From Actinomycetota bacterium (GTDB lineage: Bacteria; Actinomycetota; CADDZG01; WHSQ01), in contig JAUJNI010000001.1 in NCBI GenBank assembly GCA_030446465.1, forward strand, positions 357,859-421,858: a DNA stretch of 64,000 nt, written 5' to 3'. Position numbers and translations under genes: made by a program. This document shows positions 7,761 to 18,509 of the stretch, one piece after another. Position 1 is the first letter of the stretch; every line of letters begins with the position of its first letter. The notes below the pieces were generated by a model. It did no database searches, was not told where the DNA came from, and was given only the letters and a program-made list of their open reading frames with translations.

Positions 7761-9011
7761 CTACAGATACCCGAGGTCGCGCAGGTGTTGCTCGACCACC
7801 GACTCCTCTTCTGTAGTCATTCCCGACTCGCTCACGGCGGAGCTCTGGACCCGTTCTAAAAACTCCTCCAGCCGCCCGGTCACCTCGGGATACCTGCTGT
7901 AGAGGTTTCGTCTCTCGTTGGGGGGGCCACCGCCGTCGAGTTTGTAGAGCGAGGGTCTTCCGTTGCCGCGCCTGAGGAGCTTCCAATCTGGAGTTCTCAC
8001 TCCTACGATCCTGTTGCCCGCGAGCTTCACGCCGACCGCCTCCATATAGGCGGGCTCTTCCGGTAGCCCCGGGCCCTCGATGAGCGGGCGGAGGCTCCGT
8101 CCGTCGAGTACAGCAGGAGCGCTCACGCCGCACAGGTCGGCGAGCGTGGGAAAGAGGTCGACGTGGCGGACCTGGTCCTCAACCGAAGTTGCCGCAAGAC
8201 CTGGCCCCGCCAGCACCAGGGGCACCCGCACCAGGTGCTCATAGAGGGCGAATCCATGTCCGATCTCTTGTCCGGCCAGCTTTGAATCGAGATAGGGAAA
8301 CCAGGATCCGAGCTTGGTAGCCCGCCGAAGCCTTCTTGCCCACCGCACCTTCTGGAGGCCCAGCTCAGAGTTCGGATAGTCCTCACCGTGATCCCCTGTG
8401 ATCACCACGATTGTGTTGTCCCCGGCGACGTCGAACAGCGGTTGGAGGTACTCGTCCGTGGCGGCGAGGGCTGCTTCGTATCCGGCCTTGTCCCTGCGTT
8501 TGTTGAAGTCCGGAGGAGAGCGGTACGGGCGGTGGACCTCCCAGATGTGCAGCAAGAGAAACCAAGGGTCGGTGTAGGACTGCATCCTGTTGCAGATCTC
8601 GTCCCGCCATCCGAAAAAGGGTGCCTTGTAGCCGGGCCGATGCCGAGCCTCGTCGAACCCTCTGAGAATCCCGGTCTCAGGTAACAAAGGACCGGTTACC
8701 TCGGCGTGCGTTTGATACCCTGTATCTGAAAAGGCCTCTGCGATCGTGGCGATGGCTGAGTTCAGTCGGTATCCCTGGAGCCCCCTGACGCCGTGCCTGG
8801 GCGGATAACAGCCGGTAAGAATGGAGGAGAAGGACGGTGTCGTGGTCGTGCTCGAGCACACACACTGCCTGAATGCAGCGCCAGCTTCGATATAGCGGTC
8901 GATGTTGGGAGTGGCAACCTGAGGGCCGAAGACGGCATCGGCCCGCAACGAATCAATCACAAGCATAAAGACGTTAGGTGGCACTAATTTCCTCCGGCTA
9001 CGAGAGCGCAA
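7761..9011 (-). CDS. Sulfatase-fold hydrolase/transferase with Thr at the nucleophile position
   Basis: This 416-residue protein belongs to the alkaline-phosphatase/sulfatase superfamily. A metal-binding Asp lies in LVIDSLRAD (residue 20), and the late ligands are in VVITGDHGED and GHGFALYEHLVRVPLVL. Where true sulfatases have CxPSR, this protein has TTTTPSF, giving Thr57 as the likely nucleophile and Phe in place of Arg. It cannot form formylglycine there, so a phosphodiesterase or phosphoglycerol/phosphoethanolamine-transferase role is more likely than sulfate ester hydrolysis. No signal peptide is evident. The C-terminus HLRDLGYL is shared with two other superfamily members nearby. It is convergent with the sulfotransferase, 4 bp away. 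Confidence 0.8.
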   Translation of the reverse strand: MRSRSRRKLVPPNVFMLVIDSLRADAVFGPQVATPNIDRYIEAGAAFRQCVCSSTTTTPSFSSILTGCYPPRHGVRGLQGYRLNSAIATIAEAFSDTGYQTHAEVTGPLLPETGILRGFDEARHRPGYKAPFFGWRDEICNRMQSYTDPWFLLLHIWEVHRPYRSPPDFNKRRDKAGYEAALAATDEYLQPLFDVAGDNTIVVITGDHGEDYPNSELGLQKVRWARRLRRATKLGSWFPYLDSKLAGQEIGHGFALYEHLVRVPLVLAGPGLAATSVEDQVRHVDLFPTLADLCGVSAPAVLDGRSLRPLIEGPGLPEEPAYMEAVGVKLAGNRIVGVRTPDWKLLRRGNGRPSLYKLDGGGPPNERRNLYSRYPEVTGRLEEFLERVQSSAVSESGMTTEEESVVEQHLRDLGYL

Positions 9012-9052: not shown

Positions 9053-10792
9053 TTACTGATTCCCGTCGAGGGCCCCCGTGCACGAGACGACATCCGGGAT
9101 TGCCCGCCCTGGGATCACCGCCCTGTAGAACTTTTCGTCGATGTCGGGCTCGAGATCCTCCGGTATCTCAACTCCCTTGGTGAGGTTGTCCCTAATCGTG
9201 TAGCTAGACAAGAAAGATGCGACTTCTTCCGCTGACACGTTGTTTCTCTTGAGCTCTTTTGCGTTCAGAAACAAGGTCGCCGCCGAAGAGGCCTCGATGA
9301 TTCCCTTGCCGTTGTCGGTTCTGTCGAACGCTATTGCGAGGTCCGAGTTCAGCTCAGGACCGGTCATGGGCCAGCCCCTCGGCTCTAGTGGCGTCTGACC
9401 GTGGTCGGCGGTGACAACCAGGACGTAATCTCCCCTGCCGACGTTTTCATCGAGCATTTGAACCATGTCACCGAGCGCATCGTCAACCGAGCCGATCGCG
9501 TCTTCCTGCTCGGGTGCAATCATGTTCCAGAGGTGACCCGCGGCGTCCGGGGCCTTGTAGTTCACGTACAGCAGATCGGTGACGTCGTCGCGGCCAAAAC
9601 CCTCACCCTCGATGAGCGCCCTTATGGTTCGGTTCTCCCAAGCAGCAAACGCCGGCGTAGCGTCGAGGGGCGCTATGGCGTGGCCTCTCCACTCGCCGTC
9701 CAGCTGTCCGTCCCGCCGGTCGACTTCGTCGAGGTCGACTTCAGGGCCCTCCACCTCGGTATTGAGGTAGGGCGGGAGATAGTAGTAGTCCGAATCGGTG
9801 GCCCAGTGGCCGTCCTCTTCGAACGCGACGATGTCCTTGTCACCCCCCTCAAAGCCGGCGCCCTGTCCGACCAGACCGGTGACGTAGCCGCCAAACGCGA
9901 CGAGCGCGACTTCCGGCACGTTGTCCATTGCCCTGTCGTAGAGATCAGGGAGCGTCGCTTGCCTGAGGTTTATCGACGGGTCCACCTCAGCCCCCGCATA
10001 GCGCGGCTCCTCGTTGAAGGCGCCGACGATGGAGTGATCTGGTTTGCGGACCAGGATGGAGGTCACCCCATGTTGCCTGGGGAAGGAACCGGTCGACATG
10101 TTGGTGTGGATAGCGGGCGTGATTGAAGGTGACGATCCAACCGTTGCTCCCTCGACGTTGGTGCCCTCCTCCATGAGCCGTGCGAGGTTCGGCCATGCAT
10201 CGGGCCACCTATTGAGCACGTTCCAGCCCCCGCCGTCGATCACTGCGGTCACGATCAGTTGTGGCCTGTCGGTGGTGGAGGTGAGGATCTCGTTCAGTGG
10301 CGAGGCTTGCCGTTTGGGGAAGTCGAAGTCCACCAAGCGGGCGTAGGTAGGCGCCAGGTCGGCGACCGTCGTATCCCGCCGAAGCTCAGTCCTTCCGAGC
10401 GGGCTGATGAACCCGGGGCCATAGAAAGTCAAGGGCACTTCTTGCAGGTAGTCATAAGGCCCCGAGTGAGCGGTGTTTATGGGTCCCCCTATGTAGTTCG
10501 GCGGGCGCGGCACGATCACTAGGTCGGTGTCTTGCGCTGGACCGGGGTCCCATCCGCGGTGAATCGTGCGAACCCAGTCCGGGGGCAGCTTGCAAGCGGC
10601 ATCCATAAACAACTGCTTCGGTACGGCAACAGCTCCACCGCCTCGGGGTGGGGTCAGGGTAGACCCCTTCTCTAGGGCTGCCCACACTGCCATTGCAGCC
10701 ACAACGGCGATGCCGGCTCCTATGGCCGCGTACCGCCTCTTCGAGGAGGGGCGCCCTATCGCAACCTGTCTCTTCACCGACGTTGAGCGCAC
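9053..10792 (-). CDS. Membrane-anchored alkaline-phosphatase-family phosphoesterase, permuted block order
   Basis: A 579-residue protein has one N-terminal transmembrane anchor (about residues 20-40) with the rest outside. Its metal and catalytic blocks occur in an unusual order. AHSGPYDYLQEVPLTFYGPG (His109) comes first, then DLAPTYARLVDF. The usual N-terminal core follows: DGGGWNVLN (Asp186), SPSITPAIH (Thr225 as nucleophile), NYKAPDAAGH (Asp416, His420) and TADHG (Asp463, His464). In PafA- or NPP-type enzymes the His109-like block is last. The enzyme probably hydrolyses or transfers a phosphoester outside the membrane. Its start lies inside the end of the upstream paralogue (19-bp overlap), so the two are co-translated. 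Confidence 0.75.
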   Translation of the reverse strand: MRSTSVKRQVAIGRPSSKRRYAAIGAGIAVVAAMAVWAALEKGSTLTPPRGGGAVAVPKQLFMDAACKLPPDWVRTIHRGWDPGPAQDTDLVIVPRPPNYIGGPINTAHSGPYDYLQEVPLTFYGPGFISPLGRTELRRDTTVADLAPTYARLVDFDFPKRQASPLNEILTSTTDRPQLIVTAVIDGGGWNVLNRWPDAWPNLARLMEEGTNVEGATVGSSPSITPAIHTNMSTGSFPRQHGVTSILVRKPDHSIVGAFNEEPRYAGAEVDPSINLRQATLPDLYDRAMDNVPEVALVAFGGYVTGLVGQGAGFEGGDKDIVAFEEDGHWATDSDYYYLPPYLNTEVEGPEVDLDEVDRRDGQLDGEWRGHAIAPLDATPAFAAWENRTIRALIEGEGFGRDDVTDLLYVNYKAPDAAGHLWNMIAPEQEDAIGSVDDALGDMVQMLDENVGRGDYVLVVTADHGQTPLEPRGWPMTGPELNSDLAIAFDRTDNGKGIIEASSAATLFLNAKELKRNNVSAEEVASFLSSYTIRDNLTKGVEIPEDLEPDIDEKFYRAVIPGRAIPDVVSCTGALDGNQ

Positions 10793-12441
10793 GTGAGCAC
10801 GTCGTTAAGTCGTTCGGTTGGGAAGGCCCCAGAGAAGATGAGCTCCGTTGCGCGACTTTCGTATTCCGGCGGCAGCTCGCCGCCCGGAGGAATGTTGTTC
10901 TCGATCCGTTGGGTGAGGATGAAGTTCGACAGCTCCTCCAGGGTTATTCCTTCGTCCTTCATGATTTGGTGGTTCACCCATAGCCCCGTCACGCGCTCTT
11001 CTTGGAACAGTGCTCCTGGCTCGACGCCAAAGTGCTCTGCAATCGAGCTTTCAAGCGCACGCATCGAGATAGGCCACGCACCGGTCGCAAGAGCATCGGG
11101 AGTGGAGCCGTGGTCGGCCGTCATAGCCATCACCCATTGACCCTTCCCAACCTCGTCGTCGAGGTAGGCGAAGAGCTTCGCTAGCTCCCGGTCGGAGTAG
11201 CCCACCATCTCGCGCATCTCCGGTTGGAGCATGTTGTAGACGTGTCCCACGTAGTCGATCTGCTTGTAGTTCACGAAGAGCAGGTCGGTCACCTCGTCCT
11301 CGCCGAGCTGCTCTCGTGACACAAGGGCCTTGATCAACCTCGTCGTGTAGAGATTCCCGGCCGGCGATTTGTCCCACGCATCCACGGGGTTTCCAAGGAC
11401 CTCGTGCCCCATCCAAGCAGAATCGAGCTGCCCATCGTCGAGGTCTACCTGGCGTGCGTCTGCGGTGATGTCAGGTAAATCCTCCAGGTACGCGGGCAAC
11501 TCGTACCACTGAGGGTTGGTGAACAATCCATGGCCCCTGAACATGACGCCGTAATCCTTGTCGCCGCCGTCGAGATAGGCCCCCTGCCCCATCATGCCGA
11601 GGTGCCAGCTCCGTGCCCCCACCATGCCGACCTTGGACTGGTTGCCGGTTTGTTGGTCATAGAGGTCGGCGAACGTGGGGATCTCTAGGTACTTGGGTGT
11701 TTCGTTCGGCCACGAGCCGACCATCCGCGACCCGATTCGCAGAGGTATGTCGACGATGCCGTGCTGGTTTGGAAAAGCTCCGGCTCCGATGGTCGCGTGT
11801 ATCGCAGGGGTGGTCGAAGGAGAGGACCCGACAATGGCGTCGCGGACGGAGGTCCCCCCCGAGGCCGCCGCGCGGAGATGGGGCCATGCATCGGGCCACC
11901 TATTCAGCACGTTCCACCCTGCTCCGTCCCACACCACGGTCAGGATGAGGTTGGGCGTGCCGGGGCGCTGTTCTTCGGGGACCAGCGCTTCCTCGATCAC
12001 CGTTCCGGGACGGCCTTCGGGTAAAGAGCTGTCCACGAGCTCGGCCAGCGTCGCTACGAGGTCCGCGCTGGTGGCCTGCCGGTCGAGCGAGATGTCGCCC
12101 TGCGGCTTGATGAACCCGGGCCCGTAGAAGATCAACGGCACCTTCTGGACGTAGTCCCATGGCCCCGCGTGGCTCGTTGCCGTGAAACCGCCGAAGAAGT
12201 TTGGTTGGCGCGGGACCATCGATATATCCGGAGAGCGGTCTCCGAACGCTCCGCGTTGTATGCGCTTGATGTACGTGACGGGGAGATCGCAAGCCGATTC
12301 GAACCAATCACCCGAAGGCGCCGGCGCCATTCTCGAAGGTATGCGGGGCTTCGACGAGTCCTGTCCCTCGTCCCCTGAAGCCCAACAGCCGCCGGTAAAG
12401 AGGGCGAGCGCCAACAGCGATCCAATGATGCGTAAGCTCAC
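10774..12441 (-). CDS. Alkaline-phosphatase-family lipoprotein, paralogue with permuted block order
   Basis: A 555-residue protein begins with a lipoprotein signal (ALALFTGGC, Cys19). It shares the unusual block order of its downstream neighbour: HAGPWDYVQKVPLIFYGPG first (His91), then VVWDGAGWNVLN (Asp172), SPSTTPAIH (Thr211), NYKQIDYVGH (Asp396, His400) and TADHG (Asp443, His444). All expected metal ligands and the Thr nucleophile are present, so both copies should be active. The N-terminal blocks align closely (VPRxPNxxGG in both), which points to tandem duplication followed by divergence. It likely acts on a phosphodiester at the outer face of the membrane. The substrate is unknown. Confidence 0.75.
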   Translation of the reverse strand: MSLRIIGSLLALALFTGGCWASGDEGQDSSKPRIPSRMAPAPSGDWFESACDLPVTYIKRIQRGAFGDRSPDISMVPRQPNFFGGFTATSHAGPWDYVQKVPLIFYGPGFIKPQGDISLDRQATSADLVATLAELVDSSLPEGRPGTVIEEALVPEEQRPGTPNLILTVVWDGAGWNVLNRWPDAWPHLRAAASGGTSVRDAIVGSSPSTTPAIHATIGAGAFPNQHGIVDIPLRIGSRMVGSWPNETPKYLEIPTFADLYDQQTGNQSKVGMVGARSWHLGMMGQGAYLDGGDKDYGVMFRGHGLFTNPQWYELPAYLEDLPDITADARQVDLDDGQLDSAWMGHEVLGNPVDAWDKSPAGNLYTTRLIKALVSREQLGEDEVTDLLFVNYKQIDYVGHVYNMLQPEMREMVGYSDRELAKLFAYLDDEVGKGQWVMAMTADHGSTPDALATGAWPISMRALESSIAEHFGVEPGALFQEERVTGLWVNHQIMKDEGITLEELSNFILTQRIENNIPPGGELPPEYESRATELIFSGAFPTERLNDVLTCAQRR

Positions 12442-14433: not shown

Positions 14434-16038
14434 TTAGATGTAGCCGAGGCCCCTCAAGGTATCTTCGATAACCTTTTCCTCTGCTTCGGAATAAGGAGAG
14501 CTCTCGTCTCTCGGTGCGGATGAGAGGGGGGGGATGCTCTCGACCGGGTGATCCCTTGTGTGATCGTCGTCGAATGCGCCTTGGATCACCGACCCATCGA
14601 GCCCTTCCGGGACCCTGAGGCCGGAGAGGTACAGAAGCGTCGGCGTCACGTCCATGATGGTGCCCGCCACGGTGTGACCGGGCGGGACTCCAGGACCGGC
14701 GATCACGACTATCCCGTCGGGATGGTGACCTCCCCGAGGCAGCTCCAGAAACTCTGTGAAGGGGTGAGGATGGAAGATCTCGTCGTCGAGCTGCCACCGA
14801 GAGTCGTTGACCTCGACCACGAGATCAGGCGCGCCCTCGAGCGCGTCGCCGTGGAAGACCTCTTGCGATCTCCACACCCTGTCGGTCACCAGCTCGCCGT
14901 CGGGCCCCCGCAGGCTGGTGAATCGGGCGGCGATCTCTTCTTTCACCGTGTCGAGGTCCGAGGGGGCCACGGTGCCGAAGCGCTCACGGCCCGCGAGGTT
15001 AACGAAGACGCCCTGCTGGTAGTAGACCGATGCGAACGCCTTGGTCCTAGACCAGTCGATCGCCGCGAAGGTTTGTTGGCGCGCCCGGCGCCGCACCTTT
15101 ACAGGAAGGAATCGCCGCGCCGCCAGGGCAGCCTTCGCTACCACCGGGTTGCGCACCGCTCGGGCTCCTCTCTTGAGCGTGAGGTAGCCCCAGCTCTCCA
15201 GGAGGGCGTTGGTGTGGACGCTTGCCTCCCATGCCGTAAATCCGTGATCCGAGCACACGATCACACCCCCTCCCGGGCCGGCGTAGTCATCGAGGAGCCC
15301 CACGATCTCGTCCATGACCTGGAAGCAGCGGTTGATCGATGGCCTGATCCTGGCCCCGGCGGACGAGTGGTAGAGCTCTTCTTCGGGATCCATGTAGCGG
15401 TAGTAAAGGTGCTGCAGACGGTCAGGAGTCTCGAGGACCGCGAAGAGGAGGTCGCAAGGTCGTTCCTCGAGCAGCCGTTGCAGGACCGTGCGCCTTTGGT
15501 GCAGGGAAGCCAGCGCTCGCTCGGCAAGGGCCTCATCTCGCCAATCCTGTTCCTGGTTGGCCTTGATCTCGACGACGTAGTCGGGGACCCACGAAAGCAC
15601 CTGTTGCTCGAGGGCCTCCGGGAACACGAAGCCGCTGAGGTGCTGGCCGATGCCGGGGGTCATCATCCCGGAGACCATCCACCCGTCGAGCTCCCTTGGG
15701 GGGTAGGTCAGGGGCAGATTGTAGACACCCATGGTTGCCCCTTGGGCGTTGGCGATCTCCCATACGGTCGGCGCCTTCACCTGGCCCGAGTGCATCATCT
15801 CCTGGCGCTCGCTCTGTGCGTTGCCGCGGTGGAAGCCGTAGATGCCGTGTCTTCCGGGGTTAACGCCGGTGAACGAAGAGGTCCACGCGGGGGGCGTGAC
15901 AGGAGGCACCGTCGAGCTCAAGGTTCCGCTCGCTCCTCGGGCGCGCAAGGCGGCAAGGCGCGGCATGATGCCGTCGTCGATCAGGGGATCAAGCAACTGC
16001 CAGGCGGCGCCGTCGAGGCCGATTACGACACTCGGCAT
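14434..16038 (-). CDS. Type I phosphodiesterase/alkaline-phosphatase-family protein
   Basis: A 534-residue protein with conventional block order: VVIGLDGAAW (Asp9), TVPPVTPPAWTSSFTGVNPG with Thr48 as probable nucleophile, CSDHGFTAWEASVHTN for the Asp-His pair, and LPRGGHHPDGIVVIAGPGV with the late His. No signal peptide or membrane helix is evident, so a cytoplasmic or peripheral role is likely unless exported another way. It ends in TLRGLGYI, a motif shared with the proteins at 7761 and 16893. It is paralogous to 16893 and divergent from it, with the CDP-alcohol phosphatidyltransferase between. A phosphoester or CDP-activated lipid head group is a plausible substrate. Confidence 0.82.
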   Translation of the reverse strand: MPSVVIGLDGAAWQLLDPLIDDGIMPRLAALRARGASGTLSSTVPPVTPPAWTSSFTGVNPGRHGIYGFHRGNAQSERQEMMHSGQVKAPTVWEIANAQGATMGVYNLPLTYPPRELDGWMVSGMMTPGIGQHLSGFVFPEALEQQVLSWVPDYVVEIKANQEQDWRDEALAERALASLHQRRTVLQRLLEERPCDLLFAVLETPDRLQHLYYRYMDPEEELYHSSAGARIRPSINRCFQVMDEIVGLLDDYAGPGGGVIVCSDHGFTAWEASVHTNALLESWGYLTLKRGARAVRNPVVAKAALAARRFLPVKVRRRARQQTFAAIDWSRTKAFASVYYQQGVFVNLAGRERFGTVAPSDLDTVKEEIAARFTSLRGPDGELVTDRVWRSQEVFHGDALEGAPDLVVEVNDSRWQLDDEIFHPHPFTEFLELPRGGHHPDGIVVIAGPGVPPGHTVAGTIMDVTPTLLYLSGLRVPEGLDGSVIQGAFDDDHTRDHPVESIPPLSSAPRDESSPYSEAEEKVIEDTLRGLGYI

Positions 16039-16892: not shown

Positions 16893-18509
16893 ATGAGCAA
16901 GGTCCTTCTTCTCGGGCTGGACGGAGTCACGTATTCGATCCTGAACCCTGCCTTCGAGGCGGGGCATATGCCGAAGTACCGGACGTTGTTGGAGCGTGGA
17001 GCCTCCGGCGTCTTGACCTCAACCGTGCCTCCTTACACTCCACCGGGGTGGACGTCCATCTTCACAGGTGTCAATCCAGGCAAGCACGGGATCTTCGGAT
17101 TCACCCTGGGCAACGTGCAGCGGAACGGAGGGCTCGTGAGGCTCGACCGGGTTACCGCACCAGCCATCTGGAACGTCGCCAACGCTCAGGGCGTGCGGAC
17201 AGGGCTCTTCAACATCCCGATGACGTATCCGCCTCCCCCCGTCGACGGTTTTGCGGTGTCGGGCATGTTGACGCCAGAAGGTGGGGGGCTGACTCCGCAG
17301 GGCTTCACCTATCCTGATGCGCTCGCCGAGACGATTCAGCGGGTGGCCCCCGGATACAAGATCGACATCGAGGTCAACTACGACGAGGACTGGCGTTCCA
17401 CCGCCATCCTCGAGCGGCTCTCCCACAACCTTGCTTGCAAGAGAAAGGCCCTGTCCGCGCTCCTCCAGGGCCATCAGGACGTGCCCTTGCTCTTCTCGGT
17501 GTTGGAGGCGCCGGATCGTCTCATGCACGTGCACTACAAGTACATCGACCCAACCTGTGAGCACTTCCACCGGCCTGAAGCTGGGCCGATCAGAGAGCGC
17601 GTATGGGCCTTTTTCGACGAAATGGATGAGTTCATCCAGGACATGCTCGAGTGGGCCGGCAGCGACGGCTACGTTCTAACCATGTCCGACCACGGGTTCG
17701 GCCCCAAGGACAAGACGGTGAACGTCAATCTCGCTCTGAGGGAATGGGGCCTGTTGTCGCTTGGCGGCGCAGGAGTCTTGACCAAGTCCGCGGGCGTCAG
17801 AAGAGCCGGCCGTCGGGTCAAGAAACTTCTTCCGAAAGGCGTGTGGAAGAAGGCAAAGGGGGCGGCTCAGTCTTCTATCGACTGGTCGAGGACGCGGGCC
17901 TTCGCCGCCCCCATCCCCCAGCAGGGCATCTACGTGAACCTCCAAGGGCGGGAGCCCAACGGGATCGTCCCGCCCTCAGATTACGAGGCGGTGAGCGACG
18001 AGATAATCGAACGACTGCTGGCGCTCGTTGATCCGGACGACGGCAAGCCCGTAGTCGACCGCGTCTACAAGCGCGAGGAGGTCGTCCACGGCCCCCAGGC
18101 GGCGGGCGCCCCCGATCTCTTCCCCGTGTGCCGGGCATATTCCTACGAGCTTTCCGACGGCCTCTATTCGCCCTCGGTGCTGGACGACTACAGGGCTTTG
18201 CCCCGCGGGTTCCACCACATGGACGGCATCTTCGGAATCGCGGGGCCCGAGGTGGCGCAGGCGGAGGGACTAACGGCGAGCATCTATGACATCGCACCCA
18301 CTGCCCTCTACCTTGCCGGCTGCAAGCTGCCCGAGATGGACGGAAAGGTCTTGACCGACCTCTTGCCGGAGAAGCTGGTGGCAGGTCGTTCGGTGGTGGT
18401 CGAGCCGATGCAGCTTCCACTTGCTGGCGAGGGGGCCGAGCAGACTCCCTATTCATCCGAGGAGGAGGCGCAGATCGAGGAGTCGCTGCGCAACCTCGGC
18501 TATCTGTGA
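16893..18509 (+). CDS. Type I phosphodiesterase/alkaline-phosphatase-family protein
   Basis: This 538-residue paralogue of the protein at 14434 has LLLGLDGVTY (Asp10), STVPPYTPPGWTSIFTG with Thr49 as nucleophile, TMSDHGFGPKDKTVNVN and LPRGFHHMDGIFGIAGPEV. It begins 4 bp after the CDP-alcohol phosphatidyltransferase, behind a GGAGGCGG ribosome-binding site, so the two form an operon. This supports action on the transferase product or its precursor. There is no signal peptide. It ends ESLRNLGYL, the shared C-terminal motif. Whether it hydrolyses or transfers a phosphoalcohol cannot be decided from sequence. Confidence 0.84.
   Translation: MSKVLLLGLDGVTYSILNPAFEAGHMPKYRTLLERGASGVLTSTVPPYTPPGWTSIFTGVNPGKHGIFGFTLGNVQRNGGLVRLDRVTAPAIWNVANAQGVRTGLFNIPMTYPPPPVDGFAVSGMLTPEGGGLTPQGFTYPDALAETIQRVAPGYKIDIEVNYDEDWRSTAILERLSHNLACKRKALSALLQGHQDVPLLFSVLEAPDRLMHVHYKYIDPTCEHFHRPEAGPIRERVWAFFDEMDEFIQDMLEWAGSDGYVLTMSDHGFGPKDKTVNVNLALREWGLLSLGGAGVLTKSAGVRRAGRRVKKLLPKGVWKKAKGAAQSSIDWSRTRAFAAPIPQQGIYVNLQGREPNGIVPPSDYEAVSDEIIERLLALVDPDDGKPVVDRVYKREEVVHGPQAAGAPDLFPVCRAYSYELSDGLYSPSVLDDYRALPRGFHHMDGIFGIAGPEVAQAEGLTASIYDIAPTALYLAGCKLPEMDGKVLTDLLPEKLVAGRSVVVEPMQLPLAGEGAEQTPYSSEEEAQIEESLRNLGYL

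Follow-up and report, generated by a model that had tools for sequence, protein, structure and literature searches.

Two intact open reading frames, P0001 and P0002, lie on the minus strand of the window (the whole 64,000-nucleotide stretch of DNA analysed here) and overlap by 19 bases (Table 1). Inspection of the protein sequences revealed a signal peptide with a lipobox-like Cys19 preceding H91 at the N-terminus of P0002, and a transmembrane stretch preceding H109 at the N-terminus of P0001. In each case, the signal or anchor sits beside what is the last metal ligand in canonical enzymes, as had been proposed from the sequence alone.

The block surrounding this late histidine is found at the N-terminus of both proteins (in P0002, TSHAGPWDYVQKVPLIFYGPG around H91; in P0001, TAHSGPYDYLQEVPLTFYGPG around H109). 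The metal and nucleophile residues follow along the chain in the order H91, D172, T211, D396, H400, D443, H444 in P0002 and H109, D186, T225, D416, H420, D463, H464 in P0001, with the canonical last metal histidine being the first of the seven. An earlier, sequence-only reading had described the late-histidine block near the N-terminus with the other blocks following in order, and every expected residue retained; both observations hold for the two reading frames. It had also referred to the genes as tandem paralogues. They are indeed adjacent but did not arise by recent duplication, the proteins sharing 38 to 39% identity and falling into separate, well-supported clades. As the canonical order (late His last) is absent from P0001 and P0002, and a full canonical match requires rotation, we refer to them as a variant of the alkaline phosphatase superfamily. 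Individual PafA residues (H486, D38 and so on) are numbered as the chain index plus 11, an offset that we take to be correct and that is consistent with the corresponding columns of the mutant chain 5too (T79S, N100A).

Table 1. Positions of the permuted genes, their predicted functional residues and related loci.
Feature	Position	Strand	Remarks
P0002, permuted PafA/NPP-type enzyme, 555 aa	10774..12441	(-)	ORF, profile and model evidence
P0001, permuted paralogue of a different clade from P0002, 579 aa	9053..10792	(-)	
P0002 C51, Cys by new N-terminus, predicted partner of C551	12289..12291	(-)	putative disulfide
P0002 H91, moved metal-1 His (PafA H486)	12169..12171	(-)	62/62 in family
P0002 joint, approximately residues 155-162, old C-terminus to old N-terminus	11956..11979	(-)	rotation peak
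P0002 D172, metal-2 Asp (PafA D38)	11926..11928	(-)	alignment, family conservation
P0002 T211, nucleophile (PafA T79)	11809..11811	(-)	alignment, family conservation
P0002 D396 to H400, metal-1 Asp and His (PafA D305, H309)	11242..11256	(-)	alignment, conservation
P0002 D443 and H444, metal-2 pair (PafA D352, H353)	11110..11115	(-)	alignment, conservation
P0002 C551, Cys by new C-terminus, predicted partner of C51	10789..10791	(-)	putative disulfide
P0001 H109, counterpart of P0002 H91	10466..10468	(-)	
Canonical-order sulfatase-family neighbour	7761..9011	(-)	recurs by permuted genes elsewhere
Second permuted subfamily	loci L079-L082, L087-L090		complete or near-complete genomes included
L004 tandem phosphodiesterase, block order C-N-C-N	L004:1-3750; G000:C6:336.5-340.7 kb	minus	
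P0006, degenerate permuted paralogue	L014:1150-2505; G000:C4:345.6-346.5 kb	minus	

Block order relative to PafA and the predicted fold

PafA (PDB 5tj3; NCBIfam NF042991) was the top match in both sequence and fold and shares all seven residues, although the curated NF042991 cut-off of 650 bits was not reached (115 bits). When P0002 alone was compared with PafA using phmmer, residues 162 to 230 aligned to 17 to 87, 359 to 511 to 257 to 415, and 46 to 154 to 431 to 534, only the middle match being significant. The weak score of the N-terminal block (10.8 bits) might be expected if this block were a separate domain, perhaps the remnant of a second phosphatase domain, with another histidine towards the C-terminus completing the site in the canonical manner. 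Against this, a family profile built from 43 relatives aligned its positions 33 to 132 to residues 435 to 534 of the PafA chain, the C-terminal part, with an E-value of 2.7e-10. The same profile aligned 134 to 254 to 13 to 150 (E 9.7e-10) and 333 to 488 to 253 to 414 (E 6.8e-27), so that all three matches are separately significant and stand in circular order. The PhoK/SPAP alkaline phosphatase (PDB 3q3q, 5xwi), itself of canonical order, has the three matching blocks in common and gave a similar pattern.

The family alignment was also cut at many points and each rotated form compared with a canonical profile, built from four PafA-type proteins encoded in plasmid records of named Bacteroidota and Alphaproteobacteria. 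The native order scored 215, while a single peak of 324 to 328 was obtained at residues 155 to 162, where the canonical template was covered from approximately 14-21 to 542; the score dropped on either side. Rotation of a canonical NPP, included as a control, yielded no gain (95.2 native, 95.3 best). Canonical sulfatases matched the permuted model as two swapped pieces. Re-ordering P0002 alone and searching it against PDB and NCBIfam rendered the pieces colinear but left the scores almost unchanged, because local matching ignores order. The block order of P0001 and P0002 is far beyond chance, and the circular permutation suggested earlier is upheld by the three significant circular-order matches and by a full match that appears only upon rotation at the joint.

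Both proteins also exceed the cut-off of PF01663 (Phosphodiest), which represents the type I nucleotide pyrophosphatase/phosphodiesterases (NPP; PDB 2gsn), with scores of 98.3 and 79.9 bits against a threshold of 23. The matched positions, 3 to 223 and 5 to 283 of the 342 in the model, correspond to roughly its first two thirds. The remaining third, which carries the late metal histidine, has no match in the C-terminal half of either protein and sits N-terminally in the permuted family instead. Relocation of this block therefore explains why annotation tools report only partial matches to these enzymes.

A model of P0002 generated by AlphaFold2 from the 43-sequence alignment (pLDDT 93.0, pTM 0.90) consists of a single compact domain with disorder limited to the signal region. 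A Foldseek search with the full model returned PafA as the top match (E 4.7e-14), with a TM score of 0.50/0.53 (query/target) and an rmsd of 8.1 Å, values to be expected when a permutant is compared by an order-bound aligner. Modelled alone, the fragment comprising residues 159 to 555 matched PafA with TM 0.72/0.56 (query/target) and 4.8 Å, the target-normalised score rising slightly despite the removal of 158 residues. The fragment model lacks two strands of the full model (197-199 and 536-541), as would fit a predicted pairing of the N-terminal block with the core.

Conservation of the active site and the new chain ends

Across 62 distinct members of the family, drawn from many independent genome assemblies and all with the rotated order, six of the seven residues are invariant (62/62) and the nucleophile is threonine in 61 and serine in one. 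No column downstream of H444 contains histidine in more than nine of the 62 and therefore no conserved C-terminal histidine can substitute for H91. Together with the compact predicted fold and the profile match to the PafA C-terminus, this contradicts the separate-domain arrangement, named in the sequence-only reading as its refuting case, which we now consider very improbable. The source genome encodes five intact permuted paralogues (P0001 to P0005) alongside a degenerate one, P0006. Given these copies and the identical order in 62 members from independent assemblies, faulty assembly or accidental gene fusion is so improbable an explanation as to be negligible for this genome; no point in its favour was found, and the earlier view that the order is not an artefact in one copy stands.

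A scan of 84,980 species, seeded from two short motifs, located full-length relatives in uncultivated Actinomycetota only. Matches at an E-value of 1e-15 or better were present in 30 of 198 sampled genomes of the phylum, comprising all those sampled from the window's own family (f1) together with families f9, f51 and, weakly, f12. Relatives of P0002 were not found in viral contigs; plasmid records gave only partial matches, those with an annotation being PafA, NPP and other family proteins of the canonical type.

The columns corresponding to PafA N100, K162 and R164 are mostly occupied by I/N/V/H, E/V/K and W, respectively. Judging from this alignment, the monoesterase phosphate clamp of PafA is missing from the permuted family, a second departure from PafA besides the rotated order, and the substrate class can therefore not be read from PafA. 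The NPP-type asparagine following HGxx is kept in 12 of the 62 members.

The new chain ends correspond to a cut that falls after residue 414 and before residue 435 of the PafA chain. Cysteines were found near both ends in 42 of the 60 members with complete ends and near neither in 18, with no mixed cases. On the tree, both cysteines changed together in two events, too few for statistics, and in P0001 and P0004 the end-proximal cysteines are the sole two in the protein. Most members probably form a disulfide between these cysteines, which would hold the two ends together. By eye, the tail at the C-terminus looks similar to the N-terminal segment, but a duplication of the ends was rejected since profile comparison gave no support for a remnant shared between them (six columns, probability 1.2%).

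Gene context and a proposed natural permutation

Neighbouring genes in the window encode a Wzy_C polymerase/ligase, WecG/TagA and GT2 glycosyltransferases, a CDP-alcohol phosphatidyltransferase, sulfotransferases, a flippase-type protein and an initiating sugar transferase. Parts of this polysaccharide gene set also lie beside permuted genes at loci L019, L026, L029, L054, L058 and L074. At L015-L017, L019 and L026, permuted genes are again accompanied by the sulfatase-family neighbour. In the window, the nucleophile region of this protein reads STTTTPSFSS in place of the CxPxR formylglycine motif, which makes a formylglycine sulfatase improbable. The CDP-alcohol phosphatidyltransferase gene has on either side a gene for a canonical-order phosphodiesterase-family protein (window positions 14434-16038 and 16893-18509), and the cluster therefore contains both orders of one superfamily.

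From this context, the best inference is that these enzymes are anchored and act on phosphoester groups of a surface glycopolymer, by hydrolysis or by transfer. We propose, with a probability of about 0.9, that P0001 and P0002 arose from PafA/NPP-type enzymes by natural circular permutation, with a rebuilt two-metal site and, as a guess from the gene context, a role in surface-glycopolymer phosphoester chemistry. A C-terminal segment of approximately 110 residues, bearing the third metal-1 ligand (His), would have shifted to the front and been connected through a short linker to the former N-terminus, creating new termini at a point matching PafA chain residues 415-434. We expect the permuted chain to rebuild the same fold and two-metal site. 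Going by the alignment to PafA, D396, H400 and H91 would coordinate metal 1, and D172, D443 and H444 metal 2, with T211 as the putative nucleophile forming a covalent phospho-enzyme. The proteins may act as membrane- or lipid-anchored hydrolases or transferases on a phosphoester or, less likely, a sulfate ester.

The neighbouring sulfotransferases, CDP-alcohol phosphatidyltransferase and polymerase, together with loss of the monoesterase clamp, would also suit a permuted non-hydrolase, either a phospho- or phosphoglycerol-type transferase or a sulfate-ester enzyme engaged in glycopolymer assembly. The nearest solved relatives are hydrolases, however, and a transferase-specific sequence feature was not found; we regard this alternative as less likely than not.

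Other folds offer well-documented instances of natural circular permutation; the alkaline phosphatase superfamily is itself a textbook example of a single scaffold supporting many chemistries. Searches of an open-access collection with few subscription journals returned no account of naturally permuted members of this superfamily; the permuted form is apparently a sizeable and unreported family. Laboratory-made permutants of E. coli alkaline phosphatase kept high specific activity, according to the title of Kojima et al. 2005 (cited in PMC2395249). Those permutants are engineered and belong to another subfamily, whereas the permutation described here is natural and fixed in a clade. The picocyanobacterial phosphatase Psip1 was considered as a precedent and rejected, as its own paper ties it to PhoX, a beta-propeller of a different fold.

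A second permuted subfamily, tandem and degenerate relatives

The weak f12 matches belong to a second permuted subfamily, also present in families f33, f37, f42 and f70, whose members comprise approximately 480 residues in the order H, D, T, D/H, DH. They lack an evident signal peptide and are apparently cytosolic, and they keep the NPP-like HGVLHN motif. Sequence inspection placed their cut about one helix earlier than that of the window family.

It is quite possible, at somewhat below even odds, that the two subfamilies were permuted independently at these neighbouring sites, a history compatible with the main explanation. Comparison of the sequences with PafA segments suggests that the helix at the N-terminus of the second subfamily is the one at the C-terminus of the first. 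Furthermore, the nearest structures of the second subfamily are NPPs first, and its rotation scan rose from 155.9 in native order to 190.9 at cut 181, its own joint. Conversely, the two family profiles are colinear across the joint (E 1.9e-23), and an Asp-Gly then Asn-Val-Leu pattern just past the joint is common to both sequences.

The source genome also encodes a tandem protein of more than 1,250 residues (L004) in which two complete residue sets follow one another as H, D, T, D/H, DH, H, D, T, D/H, DH; its middle histidine block could serve either core. Similar long proteins, each with two matches to the second-subfamily model, occur in genomes G001, G010 and G288. Tandem phosphodiesterase proteins of approximately 1,200 to 1,400 residues were noted at L004, L092, L094 and G010:C37. 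Such proteins are a possible relic of the permutation's origin. We tentatively suggest, with slightly less confidence than we give to independent origins, that a single ancient duplication-type permutation founded a permuted Actinomycetota branch with secreted, cytosolic, degenerate-companion and C-N-C-N tandem members. If so, the tandem proteins preserve the kind of intermediate thought to yield circular permutations. The intact residue set, two cut positions, possible end disulfide and tandem relatives offer a system in which the origin and cost of permutation can be tested.

In the degenerate paralogue P0006, the metal and nucleophile residues are gone but the permuted order is retained; it may be a conserved pseudoenzyme partner. 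Genes of this type adjoin active-type permuted genes at L023, L048, L065, L066, L069, L070, L071 and L075, and lie by an ArsP-like permease in the source genome and at L048.

Elsewhere in the source genome (G000:C4:348.4-353.0 kb; L013, L010), a conserved MFS-like transporter is flanked by two permuted paralogues of different clades. The same arrangement of a permuted pair and an MFS-like transporter was found at L021, L023-L025, L027, L028, L032, L036 and L043; paralogue, transporter and paralogue form a stable three-gene unit.
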